Under the pieces are notes generated by a model, which had not been told where the DNA came from, ran no database searches, and worked only from the letters and a program-made list of their open reading frames with translations. From a virus, in IMG/VR virus record IMGVR_UViG_3300009499_000295, positions 1 through 64,000 of that record: a DNA stretch of 64,000 bases, one strand, 5' to 3'. Both the position numbers and the translations under genes were made by a program. Of this stretch, positions 16,479 to 39,643 are shown in pieces (the first letter of the stretch is position 1; the number at the start of each line of letters is the position of its first letter).

Positions 16479-16694
16479 TTGCCGAATAAAAAAGAAACAA
16501 AAGATTTCGAGATGAAGTCAGAATACTGGGAAGTAACAATAGACAAGGCAGACCATTCTGAGATTAAGTACATCATCGTCTTCAAGGATAAGGTGATCCC
16601 AGTGGGAGAACTAAGAAAGCTTGAAGAGGCTATAAGGAAGGTTCTCGAAGCATGTGGCCGTATAGAGACTTTGCATCCTTCAAAACGCCAATAA
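16479..16694 (+). CDS. Small protein ending HPSKRQ
   Basis: A 71-residue alpha/beta protein. TTG start with AGGAGG upstream. The end LHPSKRQ looks like a drifted version of the NPSKR tag (His for Asn). The gene overlaps the next by 43 bases. Function unknown. Confidence 0.55.
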   Translation: MPNKKETKDFEMKSEYWEVTIDKADHSEIKYIIVFKDKVIPVGELRKLEEAIRKVLEACGRIETLHPSKRQ

Positions 16695-17667: not shown

Positions 17668-17929
17668 TTTGGGTCTCAATTACTTTAAGTGTAAAATCTG
17701 TGGATTCTCTTTTCTAGAACTGTACAATCTTGAACACCATATGCTAACTTATCATAGGAAAGAACATACCCTAAAGAGGAAACAAGGTAACTTTGGTTGT
17801 TATTGGAGATGTTCCGAGTGTGGAATGGCATTCAAGAATGTGAAAACAGCTCTCAATCATTCAGGAGAAATGAATCATAATCCGACAGAGAGAATCGAAC
17901 TGGATGGCTTTAATCCTTCGAGGAGATAA
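17654..17929 (+). CDS. Double C2H2 zinc finger with two copies of the tag
   Basis: A 91-residue protein with two C2H2 fingers: CKICG...HH..TYH near residues 13-34 and CSECG...H....NH near 53-74. Two motifs follow, NPTER near 75-79 and the C-terminal FNPSRR. The internal copy ends at a position that looks like a former C-terminus, suggesting extension of the protein and addition of a second tag. Likely nucleic-acid binding. Confidence 0.7.
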   Translation: METSSLGLNYFKCKICGFSFLELYNLEHHMLTYHRKEHTLKRKQGNFGCYWRCSECGMAFKNVKTALNHSGEMNHNPTERIELDGFNPSRR

Positions 17930-17930
17930 T

Positions 17931-18041
17931 ATGTGGGAATGTCCTTTCTGTGGTTCTGAGGCAGAGAGAGTCTTTCCTAGAGACTATACTTCGCGTTTAA
18001 TCTATTGTCCAGTTTGTAAGGTTCATACTTCTCCAAACTAA
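17931..18041 (+). CDS. Tiny zinc ribbon, 36 residues
   Basis: CPFC near residues 4-7 and CPVC near 26-29 fill almost the whole protein. It is preceded by the SD formed from the tag codons of the previous gene (GAGGAG), and it is followed after two bases by the mini-gene that encodes only the tag. It has no tag of its own. Confidence 0.6.
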   Translation: MWECPFCGSEAERVFPRDYTSRLIYCPVCKVHTSPN

Positions 18042-18043
18042 AG

Positions 18044-18088
18044 ATGGCAGAGAAAGAATTCAATCCAACAAAAAGAGGGGAAAATTAA
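18044..18088 (+). CDS. 14-residue mini-gene encoding essentially only the FNPTKR motif
   Basis: ATG, 13 further codons and TAA: the peptide is MAEKEFNPTKRGEN. It sits directly after a tagless zinc-ribbon gene (two-base gap), and its stop directly abuts the next ATG. It could be a true peptide carrying the motif alone, or the 3' end of the upstream zinc-ribbon gene split off by a frameshift: the upstream stop and this ATG are two bases apart, as expected for a broken C-terminal tag. No dedicated SD beyond the upstream coding bases. Confidence 0.5.
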   Translation: MAEKEFNPTKRGEN

Positions 18089-18433
18089 ATGAGTGATGAA
18101 GGAAAGAAAAAGATCAAGATAGACAGGTATAATCCAAGCTCTAGGAAGAACGAAATAATAGAGATAGAGCAGGTACAAATAGGAACAGTAAAGTACAAAG
18201 ACATTGGAGATAACTTTGAATGCCTTGTAGGGATAGAGACAGAAGATTCGGATGCTGGTTTGTACAGAGGAAAGAGTGTAACTATGAACTCACCCAGGAG
18301 AATATCTAGGATTAGGTGGGATGTATCTAAACACCACAGCCTAGGAGATAGAGTAGATCTTAGTCCCAGAGATATTCAAGTCCTAGATGCAATCCTTCAA
18401 TACCTAAAGAAAATGGGTTACCATGTGGGATAA
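18089..18433 (+). CDS. Small protein with N-terminal YNPSSR
   Basis: A 114-residue protein with a basic N-terminus, RYNPSSR near residues 13-19, then a beta-rich body and a C-terminal helix (DIQVLDAILQYLKKMG). GAGGGGAAAA precedes the start. No family recognised. Confidence 0.6.
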   Translation: MSDEGKKKIKIDRYNPSSRKNEIIEIEQVQIGTVKYKDIGDNFECLVGIETEDSDAGLYRGKSVTMNSPRRISRIRWDVSKHHSLGDRVDLSPRDIQVLDAILQYLKKMGYHVG

Positions 18434-21296: not shown

Positions 21297-21423
21297 GTGG
21301 AGACACTACTATATCTGTAGAATATGCAAGAAGAAGTACAGAGGACGGAAACGATGTTCTAGATGTGGGTCTAGTAATAGAAGGGAAATACATCATGATG
21401 CCAGAAAGAAAGGAAGAAACTGA
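21259..21423 (+). CDS. Tiny basic zinc ribbon
   Basis: A 54-residue Lys/Arg-rich protein with CRIC near residues 20-23 and CSRC near 33-36, followed by HHDARKKGRN. Overlaps both neighbours in other frames. Likely nucleic-acid-binding zinc ribbon. Confidence 0.55.
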   Translation: MDPEKKKIAQKAKWRHYYICRICKKKYRGRKRCSRCGSSNRREIHHDARKKGRN

Positions 21424-21568
21424 TACGGGGATAGTTAATCTCCTCTGTGAGGAATGCGGAAGGATTACCCCTCATATCTTAGAGGAGAGAGGTAGAACTA
21501 AGAAGGTTGCAATCTGTGTCCTCTGTGAAGAAGAAGTTGGAATCTTAGGAACAGAGACAGAAGAATGA
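21395..21568 (+). CDS. Small zinc ribbon
   Basis: A 57-residue acidic protein with CEEC near residues 19-22 and CVLC near 42-45. No tag. ATG at 21398 or GTG at 21365 are alternative starts. Coupled to the next gene (ATGA). Confidence 0.6.
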   Translation: MMPERKEETDTGIVNLLCEECGRITPHILEERGRTKKVAICVLCEEEVGILGTETEE

Positions 21569-39315: not shown

Positions 39316-39643
39316 GAAACACACGAAAGTTGAGTCTCCATCTGGAGGTACAATAGATCCAACTATGTTCGGGCGAAGGATCAGGGAACTACCAACGAAA
39401 GAGGATAATCCTAGTTCTCGTTACTTTGGACATTTGGTTTTCCCCTTTGGATTTAAGAAAGGTGCCCTAGAGCTTGAGGACCAGAACCTAGTATGGAATG
39501 GAGCAATCATTGTAAACTGGAATATTGATATTCCTTTTGAAGATGAGAAGAAAGATAGTAATCCTTCTTCTAGAACCTTTGGAAAGTTAGCAGATGTGAG
39601 GGAATTGATAGGAAATGACTACCAAGAAACGATCAGTATCTGA
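39299..39643 (+). CDS. Protein with two NPSSRxFG motifs
   Basis: A 114-residue protein with DNPSSRYFGHL near residues 36-46 and SNPSSRTFGKL near 86-96, each followed by a hydrophobic segment. Two internal copies in a protein with no zinc site make it a strong witness for selection on the peptide. ATG at 39299; longer readings run into the previous gene. Confidence 0.6.
   Translation: MSTASEKHTKVESPSGGTIDPTMFGRRIRELPTKEDNPSSRYFGHLVFPFGFKKGALELEDQNLVWNGAIIVNWNIDIPFEDEKKDSNPSSRTFGKLADVRELIGNDYQETISI

Follow-up and report, generated by a model that had tools for sequence, protein, structure and literature searches.

The locus and its reading frames

The locus at 18,044–18,088 raises the question of whether a frame of 14 codons is a small gene of its own or a displaced piece of a neighboring gene. 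The window spans positions 1–64,000 of a virus record 133,079 bases long. This record belongs to a tailed virus with terminase, portal, and HK97-type capsid genes, and we infer an archaeal host from its RadA/Rad51-like recombinase, ERCC4/XPF nuclease, family B DNA polymerase, and LonB-type protease. The LonB-type AAA+/S16 protease gene (L003:8275-10524; record 92275-94524, - strand) lies between the portal gene and the capsid module, the usual place of the prohead protease.

All features of the locus are on the + strand. The zinc-ribbon gene (17931–18041; ATG at 17931, TAA at 18039–18041) encodes 36 residues, MWECPFCGSEAERVFPRDYTSRLIYCPVCKVHTSPN, with two CxxC knuckles and no tag in its own frame. 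Two bases (AG) after its stop, the ATG at 18044 opens the 14-codon frame, MAEKEFNPTKRGEN, as read directly from the sequence. This frame carries FNPTKR, a form of the tag NP[ST]xR, at 18059–18076 and ends with the TAA at 18086–18088, and the next ATG (18089) follows with no base in between. The next gene (18089–18433) encodes 114 aa with an N-terminal tag, YNPSSR, at 18128–18145, and the zinc-finger gene upstream of the ribbon carries tandem C-terminal tags, HNPTER and FNPSRR (17876–17926). The ribbon lies in frame 0, and both the 14 codons and the next gene lie in frame 2, which is -1 relative to the ribbon. Since the 14 codons and the next gene share one frame, the TAA is their sole separator. 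The ribbon and tag frames differ, so their fusion requires an indel. Frame analysis showed that the frame of the tag is free of stops from 18020 to 18088 (GSYFSKLKMAEKEFNPTKRGEN), that is, back into the ribbon, and a single indel within 18020–18041 (22 bases) would produce the fusion.

Translation start contexts

Start contexts were scored against the anti-Shine-Dalgarno sequence. At +2.7 kcal/mol, the ATG at 18044 did less well than 99.5% of random positions, whereas the starts neighboring it mostly scored -6 to -10 kcal/mol. The zinc ribbon start (17931) has a strong Shine-Dalgarno (-7.2 kcal/mol), as does the ATG at 18089, which has its own (-6.9 kcal/mol); this is GAGGGG at 18075–18080, within the last codons of the tag frame. 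Among about 70 C-terminally tagged frames examined, the ATG at 18044 had the worst context and the sole positive score. A ribosome-binding site of its own, as expected of an independent microprotein gene, was sought at the start of the 14 codons and was not found. The stop of the 14-codon frame adjoins the next start, as is the case with other tagged gene ends. Between 14 and 23 kb of the window, tag DNA frequently doubles as the Shine-Dalgarno of the following gene (CGGAGAGATAA...ATG), so that the peptide and the ribosome-binding site overlap.

Abundance and position of the NP[ST]xR tag

A relative, IMGVR_UViG_3300044799_000154 (hereafter G001), was located through its 74% identical ribonucleotide reductase, and its copy of the LonB-type protease is 59% identical. 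In the 133-kb record, the three + frames contain 43 copies of NP[ST]xR, and the G001 stretches read, which leave out bases 100,001–102,000, contain 78; permuted versions of the motif average 2.6 and 2.0 copies, respectively. The permuted maxima were 17 and 29, respectively, at least partly because some permutations overlap real sites. By arithmetic from the permuted rate, a given frame would show the motif in the next 20 codons downstream with a probability of about 4e-4. Counts of the DNA pattern on the forward strand, the reverse strand, and in the control were 47, 10, and 13 in this virus and 80, 1, and 7 in G001. The margin was smaller in G006 (19 vs 8), and the DNA-pattern count revealed no excess in G003, G004, and G005, although individual orthologs there still keep NPSx[RK] ends.

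The motif lies within 15 residues of the C-terminus in 32 of the 43 copies in this virus and in 52 of the 78 in G001; a further 6 and 16 copies, respectively, lie within 25 residues of the N-terminus. The tags are placed at the ends of small proteins from different sequence families, some in tandem (17876, 17909) and some at both ends. The codons of the motif are mixed (Ser by TCN and AGY, both common; Pro by all four; Arg by AGR and CGN), which indicates that selection acts at the peptide level. Terminal position and peptide-level selection, by which NP[ST]xR-tagged proteins were recognized, were both found. A purely DNA-level origin of the motif, as a repeat or as a Shine-Dalgarno alone, was rejected as a full explanation because the Ser, Pro, and Arg codons vary. 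Double use as a downstream Shine-Dalgarno may explain the frequent GAG codon in this virus but leaves N-P-S unaccounted for. The sub-form NPSSR[YT]FG is repeated in this virus at 39404, 39557, and 52549 of the window. The large terminase (L003:12521-14032, - strand) starts with MKDLDPRDLPDQCNPSSRHFTG, a tag-like motif in the N-terminus of a late gene.

Zinc ribbons as carriers and conservation of the tag

From 14.2 to 23.1 kb, a hand count gave 18 zinc-ribbon genes, about 15 of them with an in-frame tag. An automated count over the whole record, which missed some overlapping genes, found tags on 12 of the 28 ribbons in this virus and on 22 of the 33 in G001. If the 17931 ribbon were joined to the 14 codons, its last Cys would lie 44 nt (about 15 residues) from the motif, and this distance is 9 to 57 residues in true carriers.

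The tag is also kept among orthologs. In a zinc-binding family present in four viruses, GNPS and the cysteines are equally invariant and the middle letter of the tag varies, with the ends GNPSSR, GNPSRR, GNPSFR, and GNPSKK. The terminal tag is retained in the ortholog pairs FNPSER/INPSKR, FNPTKR/INPSKR, and FNPTAR/INPSKR, as well as in a second family (LEACGR...HPSKR, NPSRR, NPSKR). The C-terminus of the gene at 16479–16694 of the window, LHPSKRQ, corresponds to NPSRR/NPSKR ends of orthologs in G006 and G004; in this natural variant of the tag, H replaces N. The predicted structure of one tagged family was uninformative (pLDDT 42).

Neither a pattern scan of viral contigs nor tblastn against the G001 stretches detected an ortholog of the 17931 ribbon, fused or separate, in collections that may omit records very near the window's own. 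No relatives were found with the 18089 protein, the HATPase, or the terminase, phage records gave no match, and a viral scan with the tagged zinc-binding family returned no viruses beyond those already found. When Rad51-like and Lon alignments were run against archaeal and bacterial genomes, neither a provirus nor a host copy appeared. A scan of viral contigs for FNPSER followed by a stop gave two matches, both of one unrelated sequence, and was discarded. A literature search with the motif letters found nothing relevant.

Origin of the 14 codons

The first-pass annotation had described a 14-residue frame beside a tagless 36-residue ribbon, with spacings of two and zero bases, and direct reading showed this description to be exact. 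It had also offered two explanations: a free peptide acting as a competitor or signal, or the C-terminal tail of the ribbon severed by a frameshift. The severed tail is favored by the missing Shine-Dalgarno, the -1 frame open into the ribbon, the tagged ribbons around it, and a linker of normal length, and the free peptide gained no positive support. We consider it probable that the 14-codon frame is the linker and NP[ST]xR C-terminus of the 17931–18041 ribbon, moved to -1 by a single indel. This judgment rests on the worst start context among the C-terminally tagged frames, the frame open from 18020, the tags on nearby ribbons, and a linker of about 15 residues in a range of 9–57. Ribbon and tag would formerly have been one gene; since no fused ortholog was found, we infer this original fusion. 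The indel could have arisen by mutation in the sampled virus or by an assembly error, and at present the ribbon would be produced untagged, with the 14 codons translated via reinitiation at most.

Several points count against the severed tail. No fused ortholog was found, the ribbon fold does not need the tail to be complete, and of the neighboring ribbons two or three (18439, 21365–21568, 21250) lack the tag and have no detached copy of it. In addition, G001 contains a second detached tag, MEKINPSKRDKQ (L011:13552-13590), unrelated to the locus at 18044, in the -1 frame downstream of a stop at an A6 run. The gene upstream of it already has an N-terminal tag. Two detached tags among about 120 are compatible with sporadic disruption; their recurrence leaves programmed frameshifting and micropeptides as candidates.

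A micropeptide, for which a ribosome would end the ribbon at the TAA at 18039 and reinitiate at the ATG at 18044 to give a free 14-residue tag competing for the common partner, appears rather unlikely. The frame is complete from ATG to stop, the 2- and 0-base spacing suits termination-reinitiation, for which a Shine-Dalgarno is unneeded, another detached tag exists in G001, and small tagged proteins of 36 and 38 aa are present (L010:8427, window 52480). However, nearly all neighboring starts have the Shine-Dalgarno that the ATG at 18044 lacks, detached tags are rare, and the G001 case has a GTG start in a context that is also weak (-3.3). A programmed -1 frameshift near the ribbon stop would let a single gene yield mainly an untagged protein and, in smaller amount, a tagged one. 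Both detached tags are -1 and directly past an upstream stop, and the G001 site, AAA AAA TAA, could allow a P-site tRNA-Lys slip. Nevertheless, the corresponding site at the ribbon, CCA AAC TAA, does not fit the standard slippery heptamer, a stimulating structure downstream was looked for without success (z = +0.9 and +0.55), and the same direction in two cases has a chance of one half, so we regard this mechanism as very unlikely. It is still less probable, and indeed hardly to be expected, that the 14 codons once formed the N-terminus of the downstream protein and were severed from it by the TAA at 18086. Such an origin would account for the single frame with only a TAA in between and would suit an N-terminally tagged protein, with tandem tags known at 17876/17909, but the ATG at 18089 has a strong Shine-Dalgarno and the ATG at 18044 has none.

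Possible role of the tag and comparison with known systems

As the probable tail of the ribbon, the 14-mer by itself is probably just an unremarkable broken gene end. Less ordinary is what it draws attention to: a peptide tag that a lineage of archaeal-type tailed viruses places on dozens of small proteins with no other relationship, and that orthologs keep while the remaining sequence diverges. A terminal motif with few fixed letters and free flanks fits what is expected of a docking motif. NP[ST]xR appears to be a short linear motif added by an archaeal-type tailed virus lineage to the ends of small, often zinc-binding, early-region proteins. Judging from its sequence pattern, the tag most probably brings the proteins that carry it to a single shared viral or host partner or compartment, which might be a viral scaffold, the virion, or a host protein. 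A broader scheme, with proteome-wide tagging in which the detached copies (the 14-mer and that of G001) act as free peptides or via -1 frameshifting to tune partner occupancy, is distinctly unlikely. A receptor of the tag, once found, would assign functions to a large block of uncharacterized viral genes at once, and the broken ribbon would serve as a natural untagged control.

The 17931 ribbon and several of its neighbors resemble Lar-like restriction alleviation proteins and small viral zinc ribbons through weak profile matches, all under the curated cut-offs. We know of no NPSxR tail in these families. In phage T4, the capsid-targeting sequence (CTS) is N-terminal and is removed by the prohead protease. 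The internal proteins of T-even phages are very diverse small proteins that have nothing in common but a short targeting peptide (PMC3012670). NP[ST]xR is likewise a short peptide common to diverse small viral proteins; however, it is mostly C-terminal and only sometimes N-terminal, so it did not match the N-terminal, cleaved peptide of T4 in position. Borg proteins of anaerobic methane-oxidizing archaea contain disordered repeats bearing SLiMs (PMC9879509). The likeness is that an archaeal mobile element encodes many proteins whose disordered stretches carry short linear motifs. In contrast to the Borg motifs, which come from tandem DNA repeats, NP[ST]xR is mostly single-copy, is encoded by varied codons, and is located at protein ends.
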